Shown piece by piece: positions 618 through 28,225 of a stretch of DNA of 64,000 nt. Each line of letters begins with the position of its first letter. The first letter of the stretch is position 1. Location: assembly GCF_009671205.1 (NCBI RefSeq), contig NZ_CP045309.1, forward strand, positions 992,001 through 1,056,000, in the 5' to 3' direction. Source of the DNA: Micromonospora terminaliae (GTDB taxonomy: Bacteria > Actinomycetota > Actinomycetes > Mycobacteriales > Micromonosporaceae). Under the pieces are notes generated by a model that saw nothing but the letters and a program-made list of their open reading frames with translations, was not told where the DNA came from and searched no databases. Made by a program: the position numbers and the translations under genes.

Positions 618-643
618 ATGCCCGAGGGGGCCGCCGGTAAACC
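618..643 (-). promoter_or_regulatory. Candidate sigma-B/F-type promoter of the DUF2795 gene
   Basis: Minus strand: GGTTT (643-639), 15 nt, GGGCAT (623-618), then 10 nt to ATG 607. This agrees with the GTTT-N15-GGG architecture of general-stress sigma promoters. The identification rests on pattern only. Confidence 0.45.
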
Positions 644-693
644 GATGCCGGCCGGTCGAGCCGGTCATAAGGGCTGAACCAGGCGAAAGGTGG

Positions 694-1668
694 TCAGGAA
701 TCCGCCGGGGCGCGGGGCGGCAGAACGGGCTCGCTGGGCTCCTCCACACCGGCCTGCATGACCCGGCCGCGCTGGAGTTCGGCGTTGACCTGGACGCCGA
801 GCATGAGCGCGCAGTTGGACAAGTAGAGCCAGACCAGGAAGGCGATGACCGCGCCCAGGCTGCCGTAGGTCACGTCGTACGAGCCGAAGTTGGCCACGTA
901 GAGACCGAAGCCGAAGGAGGCGACCACCCAGGCCAGCAGGGCCAGCGCGCCGCCGGGGGTGAGCCAGCGGAACCGGGGCTGCCGTACGTTCGGGGCGATC
1001 CAGAACAGCAGCGACAGCAGGGTCATGGCCACCAGCGCGAGCAGCGGCCACTTCGCCACCGTCCACACCTGGCGGGTGAGCCCTCCGGCGTGCAGCCGGT
1101 CGCCCACGAAGTCGGTGACCGGGCCGCTCACGATCAGCCCCAGCGCCACCACGGCGAGCAGCACCAGCGACACCGCGGCGAGCCCGATCTGCACGGGCCG
1201 CAGCCGGTAGAACGGCCGCCCCTCCTCGACCCCGTAGATCGCGTTGGACGCCCGGGTGAACGCGCCGATGAAGCCGGACGCCGACCAGAGCGCACCGAGC
1301 AGGCCGAAGCTCAGCAGCACCTTCGCCGAGCCCTGCTGCTCCACCACGTTGCGCACCACCGTGACGAAGGCGTCGTTGCCGACCACCGAGCCGGCGCCGA
1401 TCTCCCGGGCCAGGTCGATGACGGTGTCCACGGTGCGTGGCCCGTCGGAGACCAGCCCGACCAGGGCGACCACCACGATGGTCGAGGGAAAGAGCGCCAG
1501 CACCCCGTAGTAGGTGAGCGCGGCGGCCCAGTCGGCGCAGTTGTCCTTCACGAAGTTGCGTCCGGCGCGGACCAGCACCCCGCGCCAGGTGGCCCAGCTC
1601 AACTGGCGTACCCGCCGGGGGATCCGGGCCCGCTGCCGGCCGCCGGCCGCCGCATCCGTCGCCGTCAT
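694..1668 (-). CDS. YihY/UPF0761 family integral membrane protein
   Basis: A 324-residue membrane protein of the YihY/BrkB family (older annotations call it ribonuclease BN, which is not supported). A basic N-terminus is followed by NFVKDNCADWAAALTYYGVL, which introduces the first membrane segment. About six hydrophobic segments are visible, including ALFPSTIVVVALVGLV, IGLAAVSLVLLAVVALG and LGAVIAFLVWLYLSNCALML, and the tail is polar. Its transport role is not established. ATG 1668 has GGAGGCGGTC immediately upstream. It is divergent from the chaB-like gene, and the pair shares a palindrome holding both candidate -35 elements. Confidence 0.9.
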   Translation of the reverse strand: MTATDAAAGGRQRARIPRRVRQLSWATWRGVLVRAGRNFVKDNCADWAAALTYYGVLALFPSTIVVVALVGLVSDGPRTVDTVIDLAREIGAGSVVGNDAFVTVVRNVVEQQGSAKVLLSFGLLGALWSASGFIGAFTRASNAIYGVEEGRPFYRLRPVQIGLAAVSLVLLAVVALGLIVSGPVTDFVGDRLHAGGLTRQVWTVAKWPLLALVAMTLLSLLFWIAPNVRQPRFRWLTPGGALALLAWVVASFGFGLYVANFGSYDVTYGSLGAVIAFLVWLYLSNCALMLGVQVNAELQRGRVMQAGVEEPSEPVLPPRAPADS

Positions 1669-1717
1669 GACCGCCTCCTCCGCGCCGCCGGCGCACCTCC
1701 GGCAGGTGGCCCGGGCG

Positions 1718-1744
1718 GTACCCGGTGGGGGAAGCCGACAAACC
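1718..1744 (-). promoter_or_regulatory. Candidate sigma-B/F-type promoter of the YihY-like gene
   Basis: Minus strand: GGTTT (1744-1740), 16 nt, GGGTAC (1723-1718). It would give a 5' leader of about 40 nt ending in a good Shine-Dalgarno sequence. Its -35 is the left half of the palindrome at 1737-1758. Confidence 0.45.
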
Positions 1745-1758
1745 GGTGCCGGTTTGTC
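1737..1758. promoter_or_regulatory. 22-bp palindrome in a divergent promoter region
   Basis: GACAAACCGG (1737-1746), TG, CCGGTTTGTC (1749-1758): perfect 10-bp arms. Each arm supplies a GGTTT element facing outward, towards the YihY-like gene on the left and the ChaB-like gene on the right. It may be two back-to-back -35 boxes, a dimeric repressor operator, or both. Confidence 0.6.
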
Positions 1759-1776
1759 CTGGACCGGTGCGGGAAT
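1751..1776 (+). promoter_or_regulatory. Candidate sigma-B/F-type promoter of the chaB-like gene
   Basis: GGTTT (1751-1755), 15 nt, GGGAAT (1771-1776). Transcription would start near 1783-1786, leaving a leader of about 28 nt that contains the strong GGAGGACGAG ribosome-binding site before ATG 1812. Confidence 0.5.
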
Positions 1777-1811
1777 TCGTAGTGGATCCCACGGAGACGG
1801 AGGAGGACGAG

Positions 1812-2216: not shown

Positions 2217-2231
2217 CCGGCCGGTGCCGAC

Positions 2232-2268: not shown

Positions 2269-2276
2269 CGTGCCGC

Positions 2277-3710
2277 TCACCAGTGTCCGCCGCCCGGCGC
2301 CTCGATGTGCACGGCCTTCACCGTGCTGAACTCGTCGAGCAGCTCCGGGCCGTACCCGAAGCCCTGGCCGCTGCCGCGGCGCGGCTGCGCGGCACCGCCC
2401 GGCGCCCCCCCGAACACCGCGTTGACCTTCACGGTGCCGACCGGCAGGTCCCGCCAGGCCCGGTGGGCGTGGCTCATGGAGCCGGTCAGCACCGTGGCGG
2501 CCAGCCCGTACGGTGAGTCGGCCGCGCAGCGCAGCCCCTCGCTGAACGAGTCGACCACGACCACCGGGGCGACCGGCCCGAAGGTCTCCTCGCGGACCAG
2601 CGCCATCTCGTGCCGGCAGTCGCTGACAACCGTCGCCGGGTAGAACGCCCCCGGCCCGTCCGGCACGCTGCCGCCGGTGCGCAGCCGCGCGCCCTCGGCC
2701 ACCGCCGCCGTGACCTGCCCGTGCACGTGGTCCCGGTGCCGCCGGTCGACCAGCGGCCCGAGCTGCGTCCCCGGGTCCCGGCCCGGGCCCAGGGCCAGCG
2801 CCTCGGCCCGCTCCACCAGCGCGTCCACGAAGTCCTCGGCCACGTCCCGGTGCACGTAGATCCGCTCCACGGCGACGCAGATCTGCCCGGCGTTGGCGAA
2901 GCAGCCCAGCGCGGCCTGCTCGGCCGCCCACACCGGGTCCACGTCCGCGTCCACCACGAGGGGATCACTGCCGCCGTTCTCCAGCAGCACCTTCGCGCCG
3001 GTACGGGCGCCCGCGGCGGCGATCGCCCGGCCGGTGGCCGTCGAGCCCACGTGGGCGATCACGTCCACCTCCTGCCCGGCCAGCGCCGCGCCCACCTCGG
3101 CGCCGCCAGTGAGCAGGGACAGCACGCCGGCCGGCAGCGCCGAGTCCAGGGCCCGGGCCAGCAGCCAGCCGGTCGCCGGGGTGCGCTCGCTCGGCTTGTA
3201 CAGCACCACGTTCCCGGTGACGAGGGCCGCGCCGAGCAGGCCGCAGGAGACCGCCACCGGGTCGTTCCAGGGGGTGATCGCAGCGACCACGCCGCGCGGC
3301 TCGGGGGCCATGAAGTCCAGCGCGGAATGGGAGCCGTGCAGGGTCCGCCCGCCCCGCACCGGGCCGAGTTCGGCGTACTGTCGCAGCGTGCCGATGCCCG
3401 CCGCCACGCCACCGCGCGCGTCGTCCAGCGGCTTGCCCATCTCCGCCGTGGTGGCCTGCGCCAGCTCGTCGGCGACGGCCTCGACCGCGTCCGCCGCGCG
3501 GTGCAGCGCCGCCGCGCGCTCCGCCGGGGCCGTCGCCGCCCACTCGGCCGTCGCGCCCCGGGCGGCCTCGACCGCCTTGGCCACCTCGTCCGCCGTCGCC
3601 ATCGGCACGGTGGTCACCGGGGAGCCGTCGGCCGGATCGTGTACGACCAGCTCGCCCCCCTCACCACCGGCACCCCAGACTCCACCTATGAGCTGCGCAA
3701 CCGTGTACAT
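2277..3710 (-). CDS. Aldehyde dehydrogenase family protein
   Basis: A 477-residue cytosolic NAD(P)-dependent aldehyde dehydrogenase that oxidises an aldehyde to the acid. Catalytic elements are all present: Asn149 (TPWND), Lys172 (YKPSE), general base Glu244 in LLENGGSDP, nucleophile Cys278 in NAGQICVAVERI, and the EETFGPV motif near 374. LENGG replaces the more usual LELGG, and the substrate cannot be assigned. ATG 3710 is chosen because the protein aligns from MYTVAQLIGGVW, and a longer open frame upstream covers the divergent neighbour. It is divergent from the FAD oxidoreductase, which suggests joint oxidation of an isoprenoid or other lipid, but this is inference. Confidence 0.92.
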   Translation of the reverse strand: MYTVAQLIGGVWGAGGEGGELVVHDPADGSPVTTVPMATADEVAKAVEAARGATAEWAATAPAERAAALHRAADAVEAVADELAQATTAEMGKPLDDARGGVAAGIGTLRQYAELGPVRGGRTLHGSHSALDFMAPEPRGVVAAITPWNDPVAVSCGLLGAALVTGNVVLYKPSERTPATGWLLARALDSALPAGVLSLLTGGAEVGAALAGQEVDVIAHVGSTATGRAIAAAGARTGAKVLLENGGSDPLVVDADVDPVWAAEQAALGCFANAGQICVAVERIYVHRDVAEDFVDALVERAEALALGPGRDPGTQLGPLVDRRHRDHVHGQVTAAVAEGARLRTGGSVPDGPGAFYPATVVSDCRHEMALVREETFGPVAPVVVVDSFSEGLRCAADSPYGLAATVLTGSMSHAHRAWRDLPVGTVKVNAVFGGAPGGAAQPRRGSGQGFGYGPELLDEFSTVKAVHIEAPGGGHW

Positions 3711-3720
3711 GCGGCAGTGG

Positions 3721-3745
3721 ATGCCCCGACCCGGGCGAGGCAAAC
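3721..3745 (-). promoter_or_regulatory. Candidate sigma-B/F-type promoter of the aldehyde dehydrogenase gene
   Basis: Minus strand: GTTT (3745-3742), 15 nt, GGGCAT (3726-3721), then 10 nt to ATG 3710. The -35 is half of the palindrome AAACGCGTTT (3742-3751), which it shares with the opposite promoter. Confidence 0.45.
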
Positions 3746-3747: not shown

Positions 3748-3773
3748 GTTTCGCCCGGTAACCGGCCGGGTAG
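3748..3773 (+). promoter_or_regulatory. Candidate sigma-B/F-type promoter of the FAD oxidoreductase gene
   Basis: GTTT (3748-3751), 16 nt, GGGTAG (3768-3773), then 9 nt to ATG 3783, so the mRNA would be nearly leaderless. It is a mirror image of the promoter on the other strand. Confidence 0.45.
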
Positions 3774-3782: not shown

Positions 3783-5375
3783 ATGATTTCGACCGCGGAC
3801 GCCGTCGTGATCGGCGCCGGGCACAACGGACTGGTGGCCGCGAACCTGCTGGCCGACGCGGGCTGGGACGTGCTGGTGCTGGAGGCCACGCAGGTCCCCG
3901 GCGGGGCGGTACGCTCCGCCGAGGTGACCGCCCCCGGCTACCTCAGCGACCTCTACAGCTCCTTCTACCCGCTCGGCTACGCCTCGCCGGTCCTGCGCGG
4001 CCTGGGCCTGGAGCGGCACGGGCTGTCCTGGACCCACTCCCCGGACGTGCTGGCCCACCTGCTGCCGGACGGCCGCGCCGCCGTCATCAACCGGGACCTG
4101 GACGCCACCGCCGCCTCGCTGGAGACGTTCGCGCCCGGCGACGGCGACCGCTGGCGGAACGCGTACGCCGACTGGCGCCAGGTGGCCGAGCCGATGCTCG
4201 ACACCATCACCAGCCCGTTCCCGCCCGTGCGCGGCGGCCTGACCCTGCTGCGCCGGCTCAAGGTCTCCGGCGCGCTGCGGCTGGCCCGCCGGCTCGTGGT
4301 GCCGGTGCGCAAGCTCGGGGACGAGCTCTTCGCCGGCGAGGGCGGGCCGGCGCTGCTGGCCGGCTGCGCGCTGCACACCGACCTGTCACCGGAGGAGGCC
4401 GGCTCCGGGGTGTACGGCTGGCTGCTCGCCATGCTCGGCCAGCAGGTCGGCTGGCCCGTGCCGGTCGGCGGCGCGCAGCGGATCACCGACGCGCTGGTGG
4501 CCCGGCTCGTCGAGCGCGGCGGCCGGATCGAGTACGGCGCCCGGGTCGACCGGGTGCTCACGGCCCGGGGCCGGGCCATGGGGGTGCGTACCGCCGGCGG
4601 CACCGACTGGCGGGCCCGGCGGGCGGTGCTCGCCGACGTTCCCGCCCCGGCGCTCTACCTGGACCTGGTCGGCGCGGCGGCACTCCCGCCCCGGCTGGTC
4701 GAGGACCTGGCGCACTTCCGGTGGGACGGCTCGACGCTCAAGGTGGACTGGGCGCTCTCGGCGCCGGTGCCGTGGAAGAACCGGGCCGTCGCCGGCTCCG
4801 GCACGGTGCACCTCGGCGCCGACCTGAACGGGCTCACGGCCTACGCGGGGGAGCTGGCCCGCGGCGAGGTGCCCCGGAACCCCTTCCTGCTCGTGGGGCA
4901 GATGTCGGTGGCCGACCCGAGCCACTCGCCGCCGGGCACCGAGTCGCTCTGGTCGTACACGCACCTGCCGTTCCGCCGGGCCTGGCGGGCCGAGGAGGTC
5001 ACCGCGCACGTGGAGCGGATGGAGGAGGTGCTGGAGGAGGCCGCCCCGGGCTTCCGCTCCCTGATCGTGGGGCGGCACGTGGCCGGCCCGGCCGACCTGG
5101 AGGCCGCCGAGCCGAGCCTGGTCGGCGGCGCGCTGGGGGGCGGCACGGCGGCCGCGTACCAGCAGCTGTTCCTGCGGCCGATCCCCGGCCTGGGCCGCGC
5201 GGACACCCCGGTGGACCGGCTCTACCTGGCCAGCGCCTCGGCGCACCCCGGCGGCGGCGTGCACGGCGCCCCCGGCGCGAACGCCGCCCGGGCCGCCCTG
5301 GCCCGCGACCGGGCCCTCACCGGCGATCTGTACGCGAGTGTGATCGGCGCGGCGCACCGCACCGTCTACCGCTGA
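3783..5375 (+). CDS. Phytoene-dehydrogenase-like FAD-dependent oxidoreductase
   Basis: A 530-residue amine-oxidase/CrtI-type flavoprotein. Residues 7-28 hold the FAD-binding Rossmann motif (VVIGAGHNGLVAANLL) followed by the second acidic strand end (VLVLEA). The C-terminus has the family FAD motif (LYLASASAHPGGGVHGAPG). Such proteins desaturate or isomerise carotenoids, retinoids and other lipids. No other carotenoid gene is nearby, so carotenoid synthesis is not supported. The next gene converges, with 310 nt between the stops. Confidence 0.9.
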   Translation: MISTADAVVIGAGHNGLVAANLLADAGWDVLVLEATQVPGGAVRSAEVTAPGYLSDLYSSFYPLGYASPVLRGLGLERHGLSWTHSPDVLAHLLPDGRAAVINRDLDATAASLETFAPGDGDRWRNAYADWRQVAEPMLDTITSPFPPVRGGLTLLRRLKVSGALRLARRLVVPVRKLGDELFAGEGGPALLAGCALHTDLSPEEAGSGVYGWLLAMLGQQVGWPVPVGGAQRITDALVARLVERGGRIEYGARVDRVLTARGRAMGVRTAGGTDWRARRAVLADVPAPALYLDLVGAAALPPRLVEDLAHFRWDGSTLKVDWALSAPVPWKNRAVAGSGTVHLGADLNGLTAYAGELARGEVPRNPFLLVGQMSVADPSHSPPGTESLWSYTHLPFRRAWRAEEVTAHVERMEEVLEEAAPGFRSLIVGRHVAGPADLEAAEPSLVGGALGGGTAAAYQQLFLRPIPGLGRADTPVDRLYLASASAHPGGGVHGAPGANAARAALARDRALTGDLYASVIGAAHRTVYR

Positions 5376-8022: not shown

Positions 8023-8048
8023 ATACCCCCGCCCCGACCGCCGCTAAC
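8023..8048 (-). promoter_or_regulatory. Candidate sigma-B/F-type promoter of the SRPBCC-SDR operon
   Basis: Minus strand: GTTA (8048-8045), 16 nt, GGGTAT (8028-8023), then 9 nt to GTG 8013. The -10 is a perfect stress-type GGGTAT; the -35 differs at one base. The -35 lies in the loop of a 10-bp inverted repeat (8033-8042 with 8050-8059). Confidence 0.4.
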
Positions 8049-8161
8049 GGGCGGTCGGGTTAGCTTCTCGGGGGCGGCGGGTAACGCCGGACCGGGCCGG
8101 TGGGAAGCGCGGTGCGGACCGGCCGTGCGGCACCGGCGGACGCGGCTCCGCCGAAGTTGAT

Positions 8162-8186
8162 GTTTACTCCTCGGGGGGTCGGGAAC
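8162..8186 (+). promoter_or_regulatory. Candidate sigma-B/F-type promoter of the heptose operon
   Basis: GTTT (8162-8165), 15 nt, GGGAAC (8181-8186), then 9 nt to GTG 8196. It supports GTG 8196 as the start of the first gene, because ATG 8160 would lie upstream of the transcript. Confidence 0.45.
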
Positions 8187-8195: not shown

Positions 8196-9872
8196 GTGCG
8201 ACGGGACCACGAGCGGGATCAGTGCAGGTCAGCCCGGGTTGACCCGGGTGCTGACCGGTTCCCGCACGGCCTGTACGACGCGGTGCTGCTGGACCGGGAC
8301 GGCACGCTCATCGAGGACGTGCCCTACAACGGCGACCCGGAGAAGGTCCGCCCGGTTCCCGGCGCCCGGGAGGCGCTGGACCGGCTGCGCGCGGCGGGGC
8401 TGCGCCTCGCGGTGGTCAGCAACCAGTCCGGCCTGGCCCGAGGCTGCTTCACGGCCGACGACCTGCGCCGGGTCAACGCCCGGGTGGAGGAGCTGATCGG
8501 ACCCTTCGACACCTGGCAGATCTGCCCCCACGGCGAGCCGGACGGCTGTGCCTGCCGGAAACCGGCCCCCGGGCTGGTGCACGCCGCCGCCCGGGCGCTC
8601 GGCACCACACCGAGCCGCTGTGTCCTGGTCGGCGACATCGGCGCCGACATGGCCGCCGCCGCGGCGGCCGGCGCCGCCGGCATCCTGGTCCCCACCCCGG
8701 CGACCCGGGCCGCCGAGGTGGCCGCCGCGCCGACGGTCGCCGCCGACCTGCCGGACGCGGTCGGCACCATCCTCGCCCGGATGCGGCTGGTGGCCGCGCC
8801 CGAGCCGGCGCCCCGGCGCGGCACCGTGCTGGTGGCGCGCAGCGACGCGGCCGGCGACGTGCTGGTCACCGGCCCCGGGATCCGCGCGGTGGCGGCCGGG
8901 GCGGAACGGGTGGTGCTGCTCTGCGGGCCACGCGGCCGGGCCGCGGCGGAGCTGCTGCCCGGCGTCGACGAGATCATCGAATGGCCGCTGCCGTGGATCG
9001 ACGCCCCGGCCCCGCCGGTCGACCCGGCCCGGATGCGCGCCCTGGTCGACCGGATCGCCGCGGTCGGCGCCGAGGAGGCGGTCGTCTTCACCTCCTTCCA
9101 CCAGTCGGCGCTGCCCCTCGCCCTGCTGCTGCGGATGGCGGGCGTGCCGCGGATCAGCGCGATCAGCGACGACTACCCGGGCGCCCTGCTCGACGTGCGG
9201 CACCGGGTGCCCGTCGGGGTGCCGGAGCCGGAGCGGGCGCTGTCGCTCGCCGCGGCGGCCGGCTTCGGCCTGCCCGCCGGGGACGAGCCGGGGCTGCGGT
9301 TGCGCGCCGACCGGCTGCCGCCCGCGCCCGCGGCCGGCGAGCCCGGTTACGTGGTGCTGCACCCGGGCTCCTCGGTGGAGACCCGGGCCTGTCCGTTCGA
9401 GCTGGCCACCCGGATCGTCCGGGTGCTCAGCGCCGCCGGCTACCGGGTGGTGGTCACCGGCGGTCCCGACGAACGCGAGCTGACCGCGCAGGTGGCCGCC
9501 GCGGGCGGTCTCGACCTGGGCGGGCGCACCGGGCTCGGTGAGCTGGCCGCGGTGGTCGCCCGGGCCGGCGCGCTGGTGGTCGGCAACACCGGGCCGGCGC
9601 ACCTCGCGGCGGCGCTCGGCGTGCCGGTCGTGAGCCTCTTCGCCCCGACCGTCCCCTTCGGGCAGTGGGGGCCCTACCGGGTGCCCACGGTCCGGCTCGG
9701 CGATGCCGGTGCGGCCTGCCGGGACACCCGGGCCATGCGCTGCCCGGTCCCCGGCCACCCCTGCCTCTCCGCCGTCGAGCCGGGGCGCGTGCTGGAGGCG
9801 CTGCGGCTGCTCGGGGTGCCCGCCGACGCACCCGAGCCGCTGGTCACCGTCCCCGGCGGGGTGGTCGGATGA
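8196..9872 (+). CDS. HAD-IIIA phosphatase (GmhB-like) fused to GT9 glycosyltransferase
   Basis: A two-domain protein of about 558 residues. Residues 27-190 are a HAD-IIIA phosphatase: DRDGTL (Asp33/Asp35), the SNQSG motif, the zinc loop CPHGEPDGCACRKPAPG and GDIGADM. This matches the heptose-1,7-bisphosphate 7-phosphatase GmhB. Residues from about 215 are a GT9 heptosyltransferase: VVLHPGSSVETRACP, TGGPDERE, GRTGLGELAAVVARA and VGNTGPAHLAAALG. The fusion couples precursor synthesis with transfer. The start is uncertain: GTG 8196 fits the promoter, while ATG 8160 and GTG 8100 are in frame upstream. It heads a run of seven genes joined by overlaps or very short gaps. Confidence 0.88.
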   Translation: MRRDHERDQCRSARVDPGADRFPHGLYDAVLLDRDGTLIEDVPYNGDPEKVRPVPGAREALDRLRAAGLRLAVVSNQSGLARGCFTADDLRRVNARVEELIGPFDTWQICPHGEPDGCACRKPAPGLVHAAARALGTTPSRCVLVGDIGADMAAAAAAGAAGILVPTPATRAAEVAAAPTVAADLPDAVGTILARMRLVAAPEPAPRRGTVLVARSDAAGDVLVTGPGIRAVAAGAERVVLLCGPRGRAAAELLPGVDEIIEWPLPWIDAPAPPVDPARMRALVDRIAAVGAEEAVVFTSFHQSALPLALLLRMAGVPRISAISDDYPGALLDVRHRVPVGVPEPERALSLAAAAGFGLPAGDEPGLRLRADRLPPAPAAGEPGYVVLHPGSSVETRACPFELATRIVRVLSAAGYRVVVTGGPDERELTAQVAAAGGLDLGGRTGLGELAAVVARAGALVVGNTGPAHLAAALGVPVVSLFAPTVPFGQWGPYRVPTVRLGDAGAACRDTRAMRCPVPGHPCLSAVEPGRVLEALRLLGVPADAPEPLVTVPGGVVG

Positions 9873-10843
9873 ACATCCTGGTGTGGCACGTGCACGGGTC
9901 CTGGACCACGTCGTTCGTGCACGGCAAGCACCGCTACCTGGTGCCGGTCACCCCGGACCGGGGGGCGTACGGGCTGGGCCGGGCGCGGACCTACCCCTGG
10001 CCGGACAGCGCCGTCGAGGTGACCCCGGCGGACCTGCGCCGGGCCGACGTGGACATGGTGCTGCTCCAGCGGCCCGAGGAGTTCGACCTGGCCTGCGAGT
10101 GGCTGGGCCGGCGGGTCGGCCGGGACGTGCCGGCCGTCTACGTCGAGCACAACACCCCGAAGGGCGACGTGCCGAACACCCGCCACCCCATGGCCGACCG
10201 CGACGACCTGCTGCTCACCCACGTCACCCACTTCAACGAGCTGTTCTGGGACAACGGCGGCACCCGCACCGCCGTGGTCGAGCACGGGGTGGTCGCGCCG
10301 GCCGTCGAGTGGACCGGGGAGCTGGACCGGCTCGCCGTGGTCATCAACGAGCCGGTCCGCCGCTGGCGGGTCACCGGCACCGACCTGCTGGCCCGGTTCG
10401 CCGAGCTGGCCCCGCTGGACGTCTACGGCATGAAGGTGGCCGGGCTCGCCGAGCACCTGGGCCTGTCGGCGGACCGGCTGACCAGCCACGACGACGTGCC
10501 GCAGCACGCCATGCACGCAGAGCTGGCCAAGCGGCGGGCGTACCTGCACCTGTGCCGGTGGACCTCGCTCGGGCTGAGCCTCGTCGAGGCCATGACCATG
10601 GGCATGCCGGTGGTCGCGCTGGCCACCACCGAGGCCGTGGAGGCGGTGCCGCCGTCCGCCGGCGCCCTCTCCACCCGGGTCGACGTGCTGGTCGAGGCGG
10701 CCCGGGGCCTGCTGGACGACCCGGCGGCGGCCCGCCGGGCGGGTGCCGCGGCCCGGACCGCCGCCCGCGACCGCTACGGCCTGGAGCGTTTCCTCGCCGA
10801 CTGGGACCGGCTGCTGGAGGAGGAAGTATGCGCATCGCGATGA
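9869..10843 (+). CDS. Glycosyltransferase (GT4-like)
   Basis: A 324-residue glycosyltransferase with a GT-B outline: an N-terminal half starting MNILVWHVHGSWTTSFVHG and a C-terminal half with RRAYLHLCRWTSLGLSLVEA, in the place of the GT4 donor-binding EX7E region, followed by MTMGMPVVALATTEAVEAVP. ATG 9869 overlaps the previous stop (ATGA), and its own end overlaps the next gene by 16 nt. The donor sugar is not determinable. Given the neighbours, it probably extends a heptose-containing surface glycan. Confidence 0.85.
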   Translation: MNILVWHVHGSWTTSFVHGKHRYLVPVTPDRGAYGLGRARTYPWPDSAVEVTPADLRRADVDMVLLQRPEEFDLACEWLGRRVGRDVPAVYVEHNTPKGDVPNTRHPMADRDDLLLTHVTHFNELFWDNGGTRTAVVEHGVVAPAVEWTGELDRLAVVINEPVRRWRVTGTDLLARFAELAPLDVYGMKVAGLAEHLGLSADRLTSHDDVPQHAMHAELAKRRAYLHLCRWTSLGLSLVEAMTMGMPVVALATTEAVEAVPPSAGALSTRVDVLVEAARGLLDDPAAARRAGAAARTAARDRYGLERFLADWDRLLEEEVCASR

Positions 10844-12045
10844 TCTCGGAACACGCCAGCCCGCTCGCCGTCCTCGGCGGGGAGGACGCCGGCGGCCAGA
10901 ACACGCATGTCGCGGAGCTCTCCGCCGCGCTCGCGGCCGCCGGTCACGACGTGCGGGTGTACACCCGGCTCGACGCGGTGGACCTGCCGGTGACGGTCCG
11001 CGCCCCGGACGGGTACGACGTGGTGCACGTGCCCGCCGGGCCCGCCGAGCCGATGGCGAAGGACGACCTGCTGCCGTACATGCCGGCGTTCGGGGAGTGG
11101 CTGGCCGAGCGGTGGCGCACCGGCGACTGGCAGCCCGAGGTGGTGCACGCGCACTTCTGGATGAGCGGCCTGGCCGGGCTGGCCGCCGCCCGCCGCACGG
11201 GGGTGCCGGTGGTGCAGACGTACCACGCGCTCGGCACGGTCAAGCGCCGGCACCAGGGCGCGCAGGACACCAGCCCGCCGGGCCGGGTCGGGCACGAGCG
11301 CCGGCTGGGCCGCGCCGTCGACCGGGTGGTGGCCCAGTGCCAGGACGAGGTCGCCGAGCTGGTCCGGATGGGTGTGCCCCGGTCCCGGATGACCGTCGTG
11401 CCGTCCGGGGTGAACCTGTCCACCTTCGCGCCGCTCGGCCCGGTCGCCGAGCGGGACGGCGCCCGGCCCCGGATCCTCACCGTCGGGCGGCTGGTCGAGC
11501 GCAAGGGCTTCCAGGACGTCATCCGGGCCGCGGCGCTGGTGCCGGACGCCGAGTGCGTGGTGGTCGGCGGCCCGCCGGCCGGGCTGCTGGAGACCGACCC
11601 GTACGCGCTGCGGCTGCGCGCGCTCGCGCAGTCCCGCGGCATCGCCGACCGGGTGAAGCTGATCGGGGCGGTGCCCCGGGAGGAGATGGGCCGCTGGTAC
11701 CGGTCGGCGGACGTGCTGGTGGCCGCCCCCTGGTACGAGCCGTTCGGGCTCACCCCGCTGGAGGCGATGGCGTGCGGCGTACCCGTGATCGGCACCGCCG
11801 TCGGCGGGCTGATCGACACGGTGGTGCCCGGCCGGACCGGCGACCTCGTGCCCGCCCGCGACCCGGCGGCCCTCGGTGCGGCGATCCGCGCGTTGCTCGG
11901 GGACCGGTTCCGCCGGTTCGCCTACGCCACCGCGGCGCTGGAGCGCGCCCGGACCCGCTACTCCTGGTCCACCACGGCCGACCGGCTCGCCGCGCTGTAC
12001 GCCGAGGTGGCCACCGTGCGCCGGCCCTCCCGGGTGGTCGCCTGA
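10828..12045 (+). CDS. Glycosyltransferase family 4
   Basis: A 405-residue GT4 enzyme with all the usual landmarks: GGEDAGGQNTHVAELSAAL (acceptor-side glycine loop), HAHFWMSGLAG, VPSGVNLSTFAP, TVGRLVERKGFQDVI and the donor-site APWYEPFGLTPLEAMACG (EX7E). The N-terminal GGQNTHV loop resembles sucrose-phosphate-synthase/MshA-like enzymes. The ATG at 10828 follows GGAGGAGGAAGT and lies inside the end of the previous gene. Its stop overlaps the gmhA start by one base (TGATG). It is inferred to add a sugar to the same glycan as its neighbours. Confidence 0.92.
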   Translation: MRIAMISEHASPLAVLGGEDAGGQNTHVAELSAALAAAGHDVRVYTRLDAVDLPVTVRAPDGYDVVHVPAGPAEPMAKDDLLPYMPAFGEWLAERWRTGDWQPEVVHAHFWMSGLAGLAAARRTGVPVVQTYHALGTVKRRHQGAQDTSPPGRVGHERRLGRAVDRVVAQCQDEVAELVRMGVPRSRMTVVPSGVNLSTFAPLGPVAERDGARPRILTVGRLVERKGFQDVIRAAALVPDAECVVVGGPPAGLLETDPYALRLRALAQSRGIADRVKLIGAVPREEMGRWYRSADVLVAAPWYEPFGLTPLEAMACGVPVIGTAVGGLIDTVVPGRTGDLVPARDPAALGAAIRALLGDRFRRFAYATAALERARTRYSWSTTADRLAALYAEVATVRRPSRVVA

Positions 12046-12737
12046 TGGCGGCGCCCACGCCGGCCGTCGGTGGGACGGTGCTGGAGGACCACCTCACCCG
12101 GCTGGCCGCCGCGCTGCTGCCGCTGCGCGACGCGGAGCAGCTGCTGGCCCGCTGGGGCGGCGAGCTGGCGAACCGGCTGGCCACCGGCGGGCGGCTGCTG
12201 GTCGCCGGCAACGGCGGCAGCGCCGCCGAAGCCCAGCACCTCACCGCCGAACTCGTCGGCAAACTCCGCGACGACCGCGAACCACTGTCCGCCATCGCCC
12301 TGCACGCCGAAACCTCCGCCCTCACCGCCATCGGCAACGACTACGGCTACGACGAGGTCTTCGCCCGCCAGGTCCGCGCCCACGGCCGACCCGACGACAT
12401 CCTCCTGCTCATGTCCACCAGCGGCACCAGCACCAACCTCCTCACCGCCGCCCAGGCCGGCCACGACACCGGCCTGCGCTGCTGGGCCTTCACCGGCCCC
12501 GCCCCCAACCCGCTCGCCGGGTCCTGCCACGAGACCCTCGCCATCGACTCACCGGACAGCCAGGTCGTGCAGGAGCTGCACCTGGTCGCCACCCATGTGC
12601 TCTGCGAGTACGTCGACCGGGCGCTGCCGGCGGCGCTCGCCGCCCGCGCCGCCGACCCGGTGCCGGCCGACACGGTGCGCGCCGGCGTCGAGGTGGTGCT
12701 CGGCGACGGCCCGGACGGGAAGGTGCAGGCCCGATGA
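12045..12737 (+). CDS. gmhA: Phosphoheptose isomerase (SIS domain, GmhA-type)
   Basis: A 230-residue SIS-domain protein. GmhA converts sedoheptulose 7-phosphate to D-glycero-D-manno-heptose 7-phosphate, the first step of heptose nucleotide synthesis. Visible: GNGGSAAEAQHLTAELVGKL (phosphosugar loop and zinc/catalytic region), STSGTSTNLLTA, and the ELHLVATHVLCEYVD segment with the conserved His. The C-terminus is about 30 residues longer than E. coli GmhA. Codon use changes inside the gene: from about 12220 to 12540 third positions are strongly C-biased and Glu is mostly GAA, unlike the flanks. Confidence 0.9.
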   Translation: MAAPTPAVGGTVLEDHLTRLAAALLPLRDAEQLLARWGGELANRLATGGRLLVAGNGGSAAEAQHLTAELVGKLRDDREPLSAIALHAETSALTAIGNDYGYDEVFARQVRAHGRPDDILLLMSTSGTSTNLLTAAQAGHDTGLRCWAFTGPAPNPLAGSCHETLAIDSPDSQVVQELHLVATHVLCEYVDRALPAALAARAADPVPADTVRAGVEVVLGDGPDGKVQAR

Positions 12738-12748
12738 GGAGGTCGAGC

Positions 12749-14224
12749 ATGACGGGACCCGTGGTGGTGCTCGGTGACACGCTGCTGGACCGGGACGTCG
12801 AGGGGGTGGTGAACCGGCTCTGCCCGGACTCCCCGGTGCCGGTGCTCGAGGAGACCACGCACGTCGACCGCCCCGGCGGCGCCGGCCTCGCCGCCGTCTT
12901 CGCCGCCGCGCAGGGCGCCGACGTCGCGCTGGTCACCGCGGTGGCGGACGACGCCGGCGGCGCCCGGCTGGGCACCCTGCTGGCCGCCGCCGGCGTGCAG
13001 TTGTACGCGCTGCCGCTGGCCGGGGCGACCCCCGAGAAGATCCGGCTGCACGCCCGCGGCCGGGTGCTGCTGCGCCACGACCGGGGCGGACCGGCCGGCG
13101 ACCCGGGCGAGCCGAGCGAGGCCGTGCTGCGCCTGCTCGCCACCGCCTCCGCCGTGCTGGTCAGCGACTACGGCCGGGGCGTCGCCCGGCACCCGGCACT
13201 GCGCGCCGCGCTCGCCGCGACCCGGGCGCCGGTGGTCTGGGACCCGCATCCGCGCGGCCCGGCCGCCGTGCCCGGCGTCAGCCTGGCCACACCGAACGAG
13301 TCCGAGGCACGGGAACTGGCCAAGGCGCCGCCGGGCGCGTCCCGGCTGGTCACCGCCTCCCGCGGCGCGCAGGCGCTGCGCCGGCGCTGGCAGGCCGGCG
13401 CAGTGGCGGTGACCCTGGGCGGGGACGGCGCGCTGCTCTGCCACGCCGGCTCCACCCCGCTGGTGGTGCCCGCCCCGGCCGCCGAGGGGGACACCTGCGG
13501 CGCCGGGGACCGGTTCGCCGCCACGGCCACGCTGGCCCTGGCCCGGGGCGCGCTGGTGTCCGAGGCGGTGCAGGAGGCGGTGGCCGAGGCGTCCGCCTAC
13601 GTGGCCGACGGGGGAGTGGCCACCGCGCTGCCCGCCCCGGTCCGGACCGCCGCCCCGGCGGTGGTCGTCGGCGGCGGGGACCGGATCGGCGCGGCCGCGG
13701 CCGGCGAGGTGGTGTCCCGGGTACGCGCGGCGGGCGGCACGGTGGTGGCCACCGGCGGCTGCTTCGACCTGCTGCACGCCGGGCACGTGGCCACCCTCCA
13801 GGCGGCCCGGCAGCTCGGCGACTGTCTCGTGGTCTGCCTGAACTCCGACACCAGCGTGGCCGGGCTGAAGGGGCCGGAGCGGCCGGTCGTGCCGCAGGGC
13901 GACCGGGGCCGGCTGCTCGCCGCGCTGGGCTGCGTCGACGCCGTCCTGATCTTCGACGAGCCCACCCCGCACGCGGCGCTGTCCTGGCTGCGGCCGGACA
14001 TCTGGGTCAAGGGCGGTGACTACGCCAGCGGCGGCGGCGCGGAGACCCTCCCGGAGGCGCAGGTCCTGGCCCGCTGGGGCGGGCACACGGTGGTGGTGCC
14101 GTACCTGGACGGCCGGTCCACCACCGACATGATCGCGGCGGCCCGCGCCGGGCGCGGCACGGCGGGCTGGCCGACGTCCGGGCTTCCGGCGATCGTCCGG
14201 TCCACGGCGGAGGGAGCGGCATGA
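12749..14224 (+). CDS. hldE: Bifunctional heptose 7-phosphate kinase / heptose 1-phosphate adenylyltransferase
   Basis: 491 residues in two domains. Residues 1-315 are a PfkB-type sugar kinase with the substrate glycine pair (DRPGGAGLAAVFAA) and the ATP/catalytic motif EGDTCGAGDRFAAT near 245-258. Residues 330-475 are a RfaE2-type nucleotidyltransferase with TGGCFDLLHAGHV (the HxGH-type site), LNSDTSVAGLKG and KGGDYASGG. Together they convert heptose 7-phosphate to the 1,7-bisphosphate and, after GmhB, heptose 1-phosphate to ADP-heptose. ATG 12749 is preferred because GGAGG precedes it at good spacing; an in-frame ATG lies at 12734. The stop overlaps the SDR start (ATGA). Confidence 0.93.
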   Translation: MTGPVVVLGDTLLDRDVEGVVNRLCPDSPVPVLEETTHVDRPGGAGLAAVFAAAQGADVALVTAVADDAGGARLGTLLAAAGVQLYALPLAGATPEKIRLHARGRVLLRHDRGGPAGDPGEPSEAVLRLLATASAVLVSDYGRGVARHPALRAALAATRAPVVWDPHPRGPAAVPGVSLATPNESEARELAKAPPGASRLVTASRGAQALRRRWQAGAVAVTLGGDGALLCHAGSTPLVVPAPAAEGDTCGAGDRFAATATLALARGALVSEAVQEAVAEASAYVADGGVATALPAPVRTAAPAVVVGGGDRIGAAAAGEVVSRVRAAGGTVVATGGCFDLLHAGHVATLQAARQLGDCLVVCLNSDTSVAGLKGPERPVVPQGDRGRLLAALGCVDAVLIFDEPTPHAALSWLRPDIWVKGGDYASGGGAETLPEAQVLARWGGHTVVVPYLDGRSTTDMIAAARAGRGTAGWPTSGLPAIVRSTAEGAA

Positions 14225-14922
14225 GCAGCAGTCCACCCGGGGCCGGCCCGACCGTCCTGGTCACCGGCGGGTCGAGCGGGCTCGGCGCGGCGGTGGTCGC
14301 CGCGGTGGCCCGGGCCGGCGGCCGTCCCCTGGTGCTGGACCGGCAGCGGCCCGCCGACGGGGTGCCCTGGGCCGAGTGCGACCTGGCCGACACCCGGGCC
14401 GCCGAGGCCGCGACCCGGGACCTCGCGGAACGCTCCGGCGGGCTGGACGCCGTGGTGACCGCGGCCGGCATGGACGTGCCGGGGAAGCTCATCGACGTGC
14501 CGGCGGAGACCTGGGAACGGATCGTCACCGTGGACCTGCTCGCCACCGCCGCCGTGATCCGGGCCGCGCTGCCCTTCCTGGAGGCGTCCCGGGGCAACAT
14601 CGTCACCATCGCCTCCACGCTCGGCGTGAAGGCGGTCAGCGACGCGACCGCGTACTGCGCGGCGAAGTTCGGGGTGGTCGGCTTCACCCGGGCGCTCGCC
14701 GCCGAACTGGCCGGCGCGGTCGGCGTCACCCTGCTCATCCCCGGCGGCATGCGCACCGCCTTCTTCGACCAGCGGGACGCCCAGTACCGTCCCGGCCCGG
14801 ACGCCGTGCTCAACGAGCCCGCCGACACCGCCGCCGCGGTGATGTTCGCCCTCTCCCAGCCGGCCGGCTGCGCCGTACGCGAGATGGTGGTCTGCGCGGA
14901 GCAGGAGTCCTCGTACCCGTGA
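14221..14922 (+). CDS. Classical SDR family oxidoreductase in the heptose operon
   Basis: A 233-residue short-chain dehydrogenase with TGGSSGLGAAVV (cofactor loop), TAAGMDVPG in the place of NNAG, and Ser in TIASTLG plus YCAAKFGVVGF (Tyr and Lys). It is far too short, and has the wrong motifs, to be the extended-SDR epimerase HldD, which would normally epimerise ADP-heptose at C6. Its step may be reduction or oxidation of a sugar. It is coupled by 4-nt overlaps to hldE upstream and to the GT9 gene downstream. Confidence 0.88.
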   Translation: MSSSPPGAGPTVLVTGGSSGLGAAVVAAVARAGGRPLVLDRQRPADGVPWAECDLADTRAAEAATRDLAERSGGLDAVVTAAGMDVPGKLIDVPAETWERIVTVDLLATAAVIRAALPFLEASRGNIVTIASTLGVKAVSDATAYCAAKFGVVGFTRALAAELAGAVGVTLLIPGGMRTAFFDQRDAQYRPGPDAVLNEPADTAAAVMFALSQPAGCAVREMVVCAEQESSYP

Positions 14923-15890
14923 TCCTGGTGCTGCGGGCGCTCGGGGTCGGCGACCTGGCCACCGCCGTCCCGGTGCTGCGCGGCCTGCGGGCCGGCCTCC
15001 CGGGGCGGGAGCTGGTGCTGGCCGCGCCGGCCTGGCTCGCGCCGCTGGCCGAGCTCACCGGGGCGGTCGACCGGGTGCTGCCGACGGCCGGGCTGGCCGA
15101 CCGGCCCGCATGGCCGGGCCCGCCGCCGGAGGTGGCGGTCAACCTGCACGGGCGTGGCCCGCGGTCGCACCGGATGCTCGCCGCCGCCCGGCCGGGCCGG
15201 CTGCTCGCCTATCGCAACGCCGAGGCCGGACATCTCGCCGGACCGGCCTGGGACGACGGCGAGCACGAGGTGCGCCGCTGGTGCCGGCTGCTGCACTGGT
15301 ACGGCCTCCCGGCCGACCCCGGCGACCTGGCGCTGCACCGGCCGCCGGACGCCGCCGTCCCGGCCGGGGTCACCCTGCTGCACCCCGGCAGCAAGGTCGC
15401 CGCGAAGCGCTGGCCGGCGGACCGTTTCGCCGCGCTGGCCCGGATCCTCGCCGACCGGGGACACCGGGTGGTGCTCACCGGTTCGACCGACGAGCGGGAC
15501 CTGGCGGCCCGGGTGGCCCGGGACGCCGGGCTGCCCCCGGACGCGGTGCTCGCCGGCCGCACCGGCCTGGCCGAGCTGGCCGCCCTGGTGGCCGGCGCCC
15601 GGCTCGTGGTCAGCGGGGACACCGGGATCGCCCACCTGGCCACCGGGTACGGCACCGCGTCGGTGGTGCTCTTCGGGCCGGTGCCGCCGGCGCACTGGGG
15701 CCCGCCGCCCGACCGGCCCCGGCACCGGGTGCTCGGGGTCGCGGACCGGGACGGGACGGACGTGGATTGGCCCGGTCCCGCCGGGGTAGGAACGCACCCG
15801 ACATTGGCGGCCATCGAGGTCGACGAGGTGGTGGCCGCCGTGGACGAGGCGGAACGGGCGGTGCGGGTGTCCGGTGCGATTGCGGCGTAG
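14919..15890 (+). CDS. Glycosyltransferase family 9 (heptosyltransferase-like)
   Basis: A 323-residue GT9 enzyme. The N-terminus LRALGVGDLATAVPVLRGL contains the GDL-type acceptor loop. The C-terminal half has LLHPGSKVAAKRWPADRFAA (donor site), LTGSTDERDLAA, GRTGLAELAALVAGA and SGDTGIAHLATGYGT. GT9 enzymes use ADP-heptose in LPS core synthesis. Here the acceptor must be a Gram-positive glycan. The GTG start overlaps the SDR stop (GTGA). This is the second GT9 domain in the operon, so two heptose or related residues may be added. Confidence 0.92.
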   Translation: MILVLRALGVGDLATAVPVLRGLRAGLPGRELVLAAPAWLAPLAELTGAVDRVLPTAGLADRPAWPGPPPEVAVNLHGRGPRSHRMLAAARPGRLLAYRNAEAGHLAGPAWDDGEHEVRRWCRLLHWYGLPADPGDLALHRPPDAAVPAGVTLLHPGSKVAAKRWPADRFAALARILADRGHRVVLTGSTDERDLAARVARDAGLPPDAVLAGRTGLAELAALVAGARLVVSGDTGIAHLATGYGTASVVLFGPVPPAHWGPPPDRPRHRVLGVADRDGTDVDWPGPAGVGTHPTLAAIEVDEVVAAVDEAERAVRVSGAIAA

Positions 15891-20392: not shown

Positions 20393-20437
20393 CAGTGGCC
20401 GCAGGTACCCCTGCCGATCACCCCCGAAACCGCGCCG

Positions 20438-22273: not shown

Positions 22274-22276
22274 CGC

Positions 22277-24410: not shown

Positions 24411-24435
24411 CTACCCCGGGAGACGCGCTCCGAAC
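24411..24435 (-). promoter_or_regulatory. Weak sigma-B/F-type promoter candidate for the LLM oxidoreductase
   Basis: Minus strand: GTTC (24435-24432), 15 nt, GGGTAG (24416-24411), with a leader of about 45 nt. The -35 is one base off the pattern seen at 1-8 kb. Confidence 0.25.
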
Positions 24436-26204: not shown

Positions 26205-26221
26205 GCCCCGGGCCCGGCCGG

Positions 26222-26509: not shown

Positions 26510-27732
26510 CCGGCCATTGTCTCCCCGCCCGCCGCCAGCCGGTCGAGTTCGGCCAGCAAGCGGTCCACCTCCTCGACCGTGTTGTAGTGGTAGACGCTGG
26601 CGCGGACCGCGCCGCCGCTGTCCCGCAGGCCCATGGTGCGGAAGTACTCGTAGGCGTAGTAGTCGCCGGAGGAGAGGCAGACCCCGGCCGCGCCCAGCGC
26701 CGCCGCCGTCTCCGCCGGGGCCGACCCCGCCACCCGGAAGGACACCGTCGGGCAGCGCCGGGCCGGCGTGCCGTGGACGGTGACGAAGGGCCGGGCCGCC
26801 AGCCCGGCGAGCAGCCGCTCGAAGACGGCCTCCTCGTGCGCCTGGGCGGCGGCCAGCCCGGCCCGGACCCGGTCCCGGCGGCTGCCGGTCGCGGCCGGAT
26901 CCAGGGCCGCCAGGTGGTCCACCGCCGCGACCACCCCGGCCAGCAGGGGGAAGCTCGGCGTGCCGTACTCGAACCGGTCCGGGACCGCGTCGGAGGAGGG
27001 GATCAGCTTGGCCGGGCGCAGCGACGCCCACCGGTCCGGGTCGGCGGCCATCGCGGCCAGGTGCGGCCCGGACCACTTGTAGGCGCTGGTCACCAGGAAG
27101 TCCGCGCCGAGCGACGCCAGGTCGGTCGGCCCGTGCGGCACCGCGTGGACCCCGTCCACGCAGACCAGCGCGCCGGCCGCGTGCGCGGTCTTGGCGATCG
27201 CCGCCACGTCCGGCACGGTGCCGATCGCGTTGCTGCCGGCGGTCACCGCCACGAGCCGGGTGCGCTCGGTGACCAGGTCGGCGTACTGGCCGGCGGGCAG
27301 GTCACCGGTCGCCGGGTCGAACTCGGCCCAGCGCACGGTCGCCCCGGCGGCCTCGGCCGCCTGCACCCAGGGCCGGACGTTGGCGTCGTGGTCGAGCCGG
27401 GAGACCACCACTTCGTCGCCGGGCCGCCAGGCCGCGCCGAGCGTCCGGGCCAGCGTGTACGTGAGCGCCGTGGCGCTCGGGCCGAGCACCACGCCGCCGG
27501 GTTCCGCGCCGAGCAGGTCGGCCACCGCCGCGCGCGCCGCGGCCACGAGGTCCAGCGACCGCCGGCCCGGCACGAACGCGGTGCTCCGGTTGCCGGTGGC
27601 GGCCGTCATGGCGGCGGCGACCGCCTCGATCACCGGCTGGGCGGTCTGGGTGCCGCCGGCGCCGTCGAAGTGGGCGAAGCCCTCGGTCAGGGCGGGGTAG
27701 GCGGCCCGGGTGCGGGCGATGTCGAAGGGCAT
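26506..27732 (-). CDS. Cysteine desulfurase-like PLP enzyme (TIGR01976-type, lacks catalytic Cys)
   Basis: A 408-residue class V aminotransferase-fold protein. The PLP lysine is in FLVTSAYKWSGPHLA, with DGVHAVPHG and SRLDHDANVRPW as other cofactor-site blocks. In SufS/CsdA the nucleophilic Cys sits in an RTGHHCA-type loop; here the equivalent loop reads SSGDYYAYEYF, with no cysteine. True desulfurase activity is therefore unlikely, and another PLP reaction is expected. The ATG start is supported by the conserved N-terminus (RAAYPALTEGFAHFDGAGGT). Confidence 0.9.
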   Translation of the reverse strand: MPFDIARTRAAYPALTEGFAHFDGAGGTQTAQPVIEAVAAAMTAATGNRSTAFVPGRRSLDLVAAARAAVADLLGAEPGGVVLGPSATALTYTLARTLGAAWRPGDEVVVSRLDHDANVRPWVQAAEAAGATVRWAEFDPATGDLPAGQYADLVTERTRLVAVTAGSNAIGTVPDVAAIAKTAHAAGALVCVDGVHAVPHGPTDLASLGADFLVTSAYKWSGPHLAAMAADPDRWASLRPAKLIPSSDAVPDRFEYGTPSFPLLAGVVAAVDHLAALDPAATGSRRDRVRAGLAAAQAHEEAVFERLLAGLAARPFVTVHGTPARRCPTVSFRVAGSAPAETAAALGAAGVCLSSGDYYAYEYFRTMGLRDSGGAVRASVYHYNTVEEVDRLLAELDRLAAGGETMAG

Positions 27733-27793
27733 GCCGGGACCCTAACCCGCCCCGGAACGATCACCGGCGGGTGGCGGTGTGGCCGCCGTCTCG

Positions 27794-27799
27794 TACCCT
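27794..27799 (+). promoter_or_regulatory. Leaderless -10 box of the lipoprotein gene
   Basis: TACCCT followed by 7 nt and GTG 27807, the standard geometry of a leaderless actinobacterial promoter. It decides the choice of start codon. Confidence 0.55.
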
Positions 27800-27806
27800 T
27801 GGCCGG

Positions 27807-28172
27807 GTGACGAACCGACGCGTTTCCCCCTCGCTGACCCCCATCCGCCGGGCCGCCGGCCTGCTGGCCGGCCTCGCGCTCGGCGCCGCGCTGCTGGCCG
27901 GTTGCAGCTCGCAGAACGCCTCCACCGACTGCGGCCTGGACGCGTGCACCGTCACCTTCGACCGGGGCGTCGAGGCCAGCGCCACCATCCTCGGGGTCGA
28001 GGCGAAGCTGGTCGGCGCCGAGGGCGACCAGGTCACCGTCGAGGTGGCCGGTGAGCAGCTCTCGCTCACCGTCGGCCAGCAGGCCGCCCAGGCCGGCGGC
28101 TTCTCGGTGACCCTGGACAGCGTCACCGACCAGCAGGTCGTCATCCGGGTGGCGCGCGACCCGAACAGCTGA
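27807..28172 (+). CDS. Putative lipoprotein
   Basis: A 121-residue exported protein. A basic N-terminus (TNRRVSPSLTPIRRA) is followed by a hydrophobic stretch and the lipobox LLAGC, so the mature lipoprotein is about 85 residues. It has two more cysteines (DCGLDAC) and a short beta-rich domain ending VTDQQVVIRVARD. No family was recognised. GTG 27807 is chosen from the leaderless promoter and the signal-peptide length. Confidence 0.8.
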   Translation: MTNRRVSPSLTPIRRAAGLLAGLALGAALLAGCSSQNASTDCGLDACTVTFDRGVEASATILGVEAKLVGAEGDQVTVEVAGEQLSLTVGQQAAQAGGFSVTLDSVTDQQVVIRVARDPNS

Positions 28173-28200
28173 TCGCGGGGGCCGGGCGGCGGCGGCCGAC

Positions 28201-28225
28201 GTTTGGAAATCTTCGCACCGGGAGA
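28201..28225 (+). promoter_or_regulatory. Candidate sigma-B/F-type promoter of the DUF1206 gene
   Basis: GTTT (28201-28204), 15 nt, GGGAGA (28220-28225), then 10 nt to ATG 28236. Same spacing as the copies at 1-8 kb. Confidence 0.4.

Follow-up and report, generated by a model that had tools for sequence, protein, structure and literature searches.

SigB/SigF-type promoter sites with GTTT and GGGNA boxes in Micromonospora terminaliae, upstream of stress-type genes and of one of two heptose operons

Introduction

Micromonospora, a genus of soil actinomycetes, is known for antibiotic producers. In the 64-kb stretch of the M. terminaliae genome analysed here (referred to below as the window), a sequence-only reading had noted eight strong and two weaker sites, in which a GTTT-like box is followed after 15 or 16 nt by a GGG-containing box, and it had interpreted them as sigma-B/sigma-F-type promoters of a local general-stress regulon that includes a heptose operon. 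The question raised by this locus is whether these sites are promoters of a single class and, if so, how far the class extends and which sigma factor would read it. No SigB/F-type promoter map for Micromonospora was found in a literature search whose coverage left out most subscription papers.

Occurrence, spacing and position of the motif

For the eight strong sites, the sequences and positions given earlier proved correct. Exact matches to GTTT-N15/16-GGGNA number eight in the window, versus a mean of 0.66 and a maximum of 3 in 100 dinucleotide shuffles. Six of these matches are strong sites (618, 1718, 1751, 3721, 3748 and 8162) and the other two are the weak site at 30476 and a newly added site at 20406-20430 (minus strand); the sites at 8023 (GTTA) and 28201 (GGGAG) fall outside this exact pattern. 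The 6.74-Mb genome contains 133 matches versus 20 for the reversed-pattern control, and 51 versus 2 when GTTT-N15/16-GGGTA alone is considered; among 100 genome places listed, at least two lie in what we take to be 16S rRNA. Scanning GTTT-Nk-GGGWA across 864 kb of sampled sequence gave 27 sites for k=15 and 13 for k=16, and 0-2 sites at each of the remaining spacings between 8 and 25; the N14 spacing with GGGNA is likewise not enriched (3 sites in the sampled 864 kb). A start codon on the same strand is present within 150 nt downstream of 43/49 sampled sites versus 17/60 sites with decoy spacings, and 1/49 versus 30/60 are more than 90% inside a called gene, where the genes were called by a simple custom script and most of the sampled stretches had been picked because they hold listed sites. 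The motif is thus in excess over shuffled sequence and over the genome-wide control and is scarce within genes.

Replacement of GTTT by GTTA is only weakly enriched genome-wide (42 versus 29), and a genome-wide GTTA sub-class was rejected on this count. Both GTTA sites of the window are conserved despite this near lack of enrichment.

Conservation of the individual promoters

The features of the window are listed in Table 1. Seven of the eight strong sites keep their boxes and their distance from the start codon in most or all of the relatives examined, and the sites at 3721 and 3748 are arranged back to back. The site before the RecQ-like gene had been missed earlier. In chaB loci of other families, a site is present just upstream in 3/5 cases, and for five neighbouring control genes it is found at 0/46 upstream regions. 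G-rich boxes are frequent in a genome of 75% G+C, and matches with decoy spacings do occur in it (60 sites); however, the shuffles, the reversed pattern, the decoy spacings themselves, the neighbouring-gene controls and the conservation all contradict the view that the matches are due to chance, to which we attach practically no weight. Based on these results, it is confirmed that the motif is real, occurs genome-wide and is conserved in relatives.

Table 1. Promoter sites and related features of the window. Conservation counts are from related species, which are not independent of one another; named loci are those evaluated, except where every locus was counted.
Feature	Position	Strand	Boxes	Start codon	Relatives	Named loci
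DUF2795 gene promoter	618..643	-	GTTT-N15-GGGCAT	ATG 10 nt past box (start at 607)	24/24 same-genus chaB loci	56/56; offset 10 nt in 55/56
BrkB-family gene (694-1668) promoter	1718..1744	-	GTTT-N16-GGGTAC	ATG 49 nt after	22/24 same-genus loci	53/53; spacer 16 in all 53
chaB (1812-2216) promoter	1751..1776	+	GTTT-N15-GGGAAT	ATG 35 nt after	23/24 same-genus loci	56/56
Aldehyde dehydrogenase (ALDH) gene (2277-3710) promoter	3721..3745	-	GTTT-N15-GGGCAT	ATG 10 nt past box	10/10	57/57; offset 8-10 nt throughout
CrtI/CrtO-like oxidoreductase gene (3783-5375) promoter	3748..3773	+	GTTT-N16-GGGTAG	ATG 9 nt past box	10/10	51/56 (5/56 without site)
SRPBCC gene (7567-8013) promoter	8023..8048	-	GTTA-N16-GGGTAT	GTG 9 nt past box	7/9 (absent in 2/9)	47/51, GTTA in all 47 (absent in 4/51)
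Distal heptose promoter (new)	8059..8084	+	GTTAG-N16-GGGTAA		11-genome alignment	61/80, every locus counted
Proximal heptose promoter	8162..8186	+	GTTTA-N15-GGGAAC	GTG 9 nt past box	10/10	63/80, every locus counted; offset 9 nt in 63/63
Seven-gene heptose operon (Pfam and NCBIfam scans)	8196..15890	+				
RecQ-like helicase gene (18761-20392) promoter (new)	20405..20430	-	GTTT-N16-GGGTAC	ATG 12 nt past box	8/8 with homologue	
Weak candidate, luciferase-like monooxygenase gene (23408-24358)	24411..24435	-	GTTC-N15-GGGTAG (no strict match)		GGGGTA in 4/4; -35 poor	
Conserved block before DUF1206 gene (28236-29057); class assignment not supported	28201..28225	+			GTTTG and GGAGATTG kept	
Weak candidate, far upstream of holin-family gene (30644-31078)	30476..30500	+	GTTT-N15-GGGGAC	ATG 143 nt away	GTTTG and GGGGA in 8/9	

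The exception among the strong sites is 28201, where the GGG reads CGG in 4/8 relatives, and its assignment as a SigB/SigF-type promoter is not supported for this reason. The earlier statement that six sites end 9-10 nt before a start codon (618, 3721, 3748, 8023, 8162 and 28201) is correct as a count, but it includes this site, which fails as a member of the class.

Position of the start codons

At five window promoters (DUF2795, ALDH, CrtI-like, SRPBCC and the proximal heptose promoter), the start codon is 9-10 nt past the -10 box. This distance is compatible with predicted transcription starts 5-12 nt after the box, and for Streptomyces coelicolor SigB and its homologues the accessible text of PMC8346170 places the start mostly 8-11 nt after a GGGNA -10 box. 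Transcription from these five promoters would thus be expected to begin at the start codon itself or right beside it, and leaderless mRNAs are predicted for all five. The RecQ-like transcript would be near leaderless (12 nt), and the BrkB and chaB leaders would be roughly 25-40 nt long. However, it will be incorrect to regard this architecture as a special mark of the regulon, as leaderless starts are common in this genome anyway: a TANNNT box 6-8 nt upstream of the start is frequent as well, with 58 occurrences among 493 genes with free upstream sequence. In Actinoplanes SE50/110, 14% of the CDS are described as leaderless in the part of PMC7682106 that is accessible.

Promoter class and candidate sigma factors

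In promoters of the SigB/SigF class, GTTT and GGGNA boxes are 14-17 bp apart, and the spacing observed here peaks solely at 15 and 16. The sites are located upstream of genes (in the position test given above) and they are conserved in relatives and in named species. The genome also encodes sigma factors of the SigB/F/G family: in a profile search, 3/23 matches exceed the TIGR02980 cut-off, viz. two SigF-like proteins and one ssdA-like protein, a sigma factor with a C-terminal extension. Together with the published consensus sequences, these observations strongly support the class assignment made in the sequence-only reading, and the sites very probably represent the known sigma-B/sigma-F promoter class, with a -35 GTTT and a -10 GGGNAN separated by 15-16 bp. 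Both boxes would be recognised by an RNA polymerase holoenzyme with a sigma factor of the SigB/SigF family. The description of the regulon as local did not hold, as the 133 sites are spread across the genome and are again densely grouped at 1.388-1.504 Mb. Strict sites exceed the reversed-pattern background by about 110, and they would form a stress or late-growth regulon that extends over the whole genome, with nine conserved members in the window.

The same type of site is described for other actinobacteria, in those parts of the cited papers that are accessible. The Mycobacterium smegmatis SigF consensus is GTTT-N(15-17)-GGGTA (PMC7390352), and within the SigF regulon of this species, sites of the form GTTT- or GTTG-N15/16-GGG are given for the genes of ChaB, hemerythrin, catalase and phytoene dehydrogenase (PMC4694148). 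Consensus and target types are thus shared with M. terminaliae. However, chaB shares a transcript with rsbW and sigF in M. smegmatis, whereas in M. terminaliae it stands alone, divergent from the BrkB gene, and no sigma gene is present beside it within the window. The accessible descriptions of the M. smegmatis regulon also contain no heptose operon, unlike M. terminaliae. S. coelicolor SigB and its homologues have the GGGNA -10 box in common with the sites described here, but a looser -35, GNNT, is given for SigB, SigL and SigM (PMC8346170). The strict motif showed no excess in a putatively Streptomyces-like genome family.

The acting sigma factor, its signal and the exact 5' ends can be proposed only provisionally from sequence. 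Among the matches listed, no strict site is present near the two SigF-like genes, and there is thus no sign of autoregulation there. The ssdA-like gene lies within the densest site group (1.388-1.504 Mb) and adjoins ctaD and a HATPase gene, both bearing sites; an arrangement of ssdA and sipA with ctaD between them is described for Micromonospora in the accessible text of PMC10733313. The promoters could be of this class and yet form mainly the regulon of the ssdA-like sigma factor, serving spores and dormancy rather than general stress. The motif given in the same source for sigma-SsdA of Actinoplanes missouriensis, a member of the same family as the Micromonospora candidates, is GnTT-n14-CGGGTA, which equals a 15-bp spacer as counted here; a catalase and a luciferase-like monooxygenase are among the 17 likely targets of this sigma factor. 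However, only these 17 direct targets are proposed there, compared with an excess of about 110 strict sites over background in M. terminaliae, where three SigBFG sigma factors are candidates; further, the two other SigBFG genes outscore the ssdA-like gene in the family search, and M. smegmatis SigF uses the same motif for stress genes (PMC4694148, PMC7390352). We consider the ssdA-centred alternative possible but the less probable one. A general-stress role, for which genes of oxidative, osmotic and DNA or protein protection would be expected, is compatible with the target types: the further targets in the genome include catalase, OsmC, DJ-1/PfpI, DksA/TraR-type and hemerythrin genes, and many of the 30/39 further targets scanned with Pfam are of stress type, a tally that covers the targets alone.

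The heptose operon and its tandem promoters

The operon encodes a GmhB-like/GT9 fusion, two glycosyltransferases, GmhA-like, HldE-like and SDR proteins and a GT9 protein; the heptose-enzyme equivalog models match these proteins below their curated cut-offs. Its earlier assignment to this promoter class is upheld, but a second, distal promoter had been overlooked. The -35 region of this distal promoter and that of the SRPBCC promoter form a perfect inverted repeat, GCTAAC-N10-GTTAGC (8043-8064), which could also be read as a palindromic operator for a repressor or activator instead of back-to-back -35 boxes. However, in those aligned genomes where both halves occur, they lie 7 to 11 nt apart, depending on the genome, and each half mostly retains its own GGGTA at 15-16 bp. 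On the variable gap a fixed operator was rejected, and an operator of any such kind is very unlikely; two divergent -35 boxes are the preferred reading.

The tandem promoters carry a common spacer element, GTTWRCTYCYCGG, which in the 6.74-Mb genome occurs exactly at these two places only; allowing one mismatch, there are 61 matches (2 of them exact) versus 23 for the reversed element. The seven-gene operon is present twice in this genome, and the second copy has neither the tandem promoters nor the spacer element; in a looser scan, an N14 variant was also absent from it. This variant, GTTTA-N14-GGGCAA with the start codon 10 nt later, is present in 5/16 evaluable loci that lack a 15/16-bp site (L150, L156, L168, L175 and L181) and was not found in the other 11. 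As some comparable loci elsewhere carry it, the second copy may once have been under such control and have lost it, instead of having always lacked it. Tentatively, one heptose copy could be under a SigB-type stress response through its tandem promoters, with the spacer element bound by an additional putative regulator, and the other copy could have drifted out of this control here.

Our literature search on heptose in actinobacteria found little; in the accessible text of PMC5563000, an annotated heptosyltransferase of Frankia is up-regulated by salt, which is only a loose parallel to the operon described here.

Significance

The sites described here can serve as a list of SigB/F-type promoters to be tested in Micromonospora. 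The ADP-heptose-type pathway is best known from Gram-negative lipopolysaccharide, and in this actinobacterium such a pathway is tied to a predicted stress-type promoter through one of two duplicated operons, so that the two copies can be compared. If the proposed control is true, a Gram-positive bacterium would make a heptose glycan specifically under stress.

Enrichment and distribution of the GTTT-N15/16-GGGNA promoters

The pattern GTTT-N15/16-GGGNA, in which the two elements are the -35 and -10 of SigB/SigF-type promoters, is present 8 times in the window, versus a mean of 0.66 and a maximum of 3 in 100 shuffles. Across the 6.74-Mb genome, of which the window covers 992001-1056000, it is found 133 times as against 20 for the reversed pattern, and GTTT-N15/16-GGGTA 51 times as against 2. 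In an 864-kb sample, consisting of the window and 800 kb mostly picked for containing listed sites, GTTT-Nk-GGGWA was seen 27 times for k=15, 13 times for k=16 and 0-2 times for each remaining k in the range 8-25. In this sample a same-strand start lies within 150 nt of 43 of the 49 sites, compared to 17 of 60 sites with decoy spacing, and 1/49 versus 30/60 lie more than 90% inside a called gene. Among 148 genomes from across the class, the strict GGGTA motif clearly exceeded its reversed control in Micromonospora, in most genomes of another family of the order (f8, with the exception of genome G121, where it did not) and in some others; in many families of this set, f33 among them, it was not clearly above the control.

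Conservation of the window promoters

The letters and coordinates given for the sites by the sequence-only reading proved right when the sequence was read again, and two conserved sites which it had missed, viz. those before the RecQ-like gene and at the distal end of the heptose promoter region, are included in the table. In the upstream regions of five control genes (GT2, topoisomerase IB, AraC, GH3 and MscS) from the ten relatives, no site was present in 46 regions, and GT2 had one in 1/61 of the loci fetched via the heptose protein. Of 24 chaB-centred loci from the genus, 24 carry the DUF2795-type site, 23 the chaB site and 22 the BrkB N16 site, and the site is found just upstream in 3/5 chaB loci from other families.

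Features of the window. Relatives are ten same-genus genomes (40 kb each); fetched loci are those evaluated of 80 named loci, which are related to one another so that the counts are not independent; left out are the 22-29 loci per gene in which no homologue was within reach, and a single weak match for each of BrkB, ALDH and CrtI-like
Feature	Position	Relatives	Fetched loci	Start after box (fetched loci)	Remarks
DUF2795	618	10/10	56/56	10 nt in 55/56	
BrkB	1718	9/9	53/53		spacer 16 in 53/53
chaB	1751	10/10	56/56		
ALDH	3721	10/10	57/57	8-10 nt in 57/57	spacer 15 in 57/57
CrtI-like oxidoreductase	3748	10/10	51/56	9 nt in 47/51	
Inverted repeat	5458-5473, 5568-5583				perfect, 16 bp (CCTTTGCTCTGCAGCC), between two convergent genes
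SRPBCC	8023	7/9	47/51	9 nt in 41/47	spacer length mixed (33 and 14 of the 47 loci)
Heptose, distal	8059-8084				plus; GTTAG-N16-GGGTAA
Heptose, proximal	8162-8186	10/10		9 nt in 63/63	
Shared spacer element	8059-8071, 8162-8174				GTTWRCTYCYCGG
Heptose operon	8196-15890				seven genes: GmhB-like phosphatase/GT9 fusion, two further glycosyltransferases, GmhA-like, HldE-like, SDR, another GT9
RecQ-like	20405-20430	8/8			minus; ATG 12 nt past box
DUF2201-type metallopeptidase and AAA ATPase gene	20438-23347				homologues absent from the 40 kb read in each of the ten relatives
Weak sites	24411, 30476				
DUF1206 block	28201-28235				GTTTG ... GGAGATTG, conserved
Stretch before holin-family gene	30588-30643				CAGGATTGACG ... 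CTCCGGGCATACAGCGCGGTGATGA, strongly conserved

Spacer length is mostly kept in the fetched loci. The site at 28201 before DUF1206, which had been counted among the strong ones, does not hold as a member of this class, as its GGG is changed to CGG in 4/8 relatives and the fifth base of its -10 is G; the block may be a ribosome-binding region or a promoter of a different class. The sites at 24411 and 30476, already considered weak, are conserved in part and may belong to the class. Compared with the 30476 site, the stretch at 30588-30643 looks more like a housekeeping promoter.

Distance to the start codon

Across the 49 sites, the distance from the box to a start-type codon is 9 nt in 8 cases, and 10 nt and 12 nt in 4 cases each; the counts rise again from 28 nt. 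In the fetched loci this offset is nearly fixed. In table rows of PMC8346170, SigB-type transcription in Streptomyces starts mostly 8-11 nt past the box. Because the start codons sit where transcription would thus begin, the mRNAs of the DUF2795, ALDH, CrtI-like, SRPBCC and proximal heptose promoters are predicted to be leaderless, an arrangement of a type that is common in this genome anyway.

The heptose operon and its second copy

The heptose-enzyme matches of this operon fall under the NCBIfam equivalog cut-offs. Among named organisms, the heptose protein is closest to those of M. chaiyaphumensis and other Micromonospora, which places the genome in this genus. The operon is duplicated, with a second copy at genome ~829-837 kb (first proteins 77% identical). 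Of the 80 fetched loci, 65 are on the topoisomerase or SRPBCC side, where the two promoters occur together in 60, the proximal one alone in 2 and neither in 3 (one each a contig-end cut, Micromonospora sp. KC606 and Actinoplanes). The other 15 are in a different context; both 15/16-bp sites are missing from 14 of these and present on one short contig. Both promoters are present in Salinispora (3) and the proximal one in Phytohabitans (1). In a looser scan of the 17 loci lacking a 15/16-bp site, GTTTA-N14-GGGCAA was found in 5/16 evaluable loci, each time followed by a start codon after 10 nt; the second copy of this genome has neither a 15/16-bp site nor this variant. Therefore, second-copy loci are not uniformly without such boxes, and loss is as probable an account of their promoter state as capture.

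Spacer conservation is higher in the two heptose promoters (1.50 and 1.49 bits per column) than in six others (0.71-1.21), and GTTWRCTYCYCGG, common to both, has its only exact genome matches there. The proximal signature was found in 3/296 class-wide genomes, which are all three Micromonospora of that draw. On a bold reading, this element would be the target of an additional regulator; a plain alternative is that the tandem promoters inherited it from a common ancestor.

Sigma factors and targets

Three genes, at genome positions 1594690, 971849 and 1458735, score above the cut-off for the SigB/F/G family. The last of these is ssdA-like and encodes 377 residues, the sigma part ending at 261, followed by what by eye is a putative anti-sigma-antagonist-like domain. 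Sites are present at ctaD (COX1), a HATPase gene and a DUF4383 gene, all adjoining it, and this neighbourhood is similar to the ssdA/ctaD/sipA arrangement that PMC10733313 describes in Micromonospora. A dense group of sites surrounds this sigma gene (genome 1388034-1504329). A Pfam scan of 30 of 39 further targets assigned families to 27, including catalase, OsmC, DJ-1/PfpI, DksA/TraR-type zinc finger, hemerythrin, four DUF2267 proteins, a Clp-type ATPase, a mechanosensitive-channel protein and a kinase; the impression, from a scan of targets alone, is of enrichment in stress types.

The promoter class itself is already known. Tentative additions to it are the map for Micromonospora, the fixed distance to the start codon and the duplication of the heptose operon; a literature search listed no published account of these.
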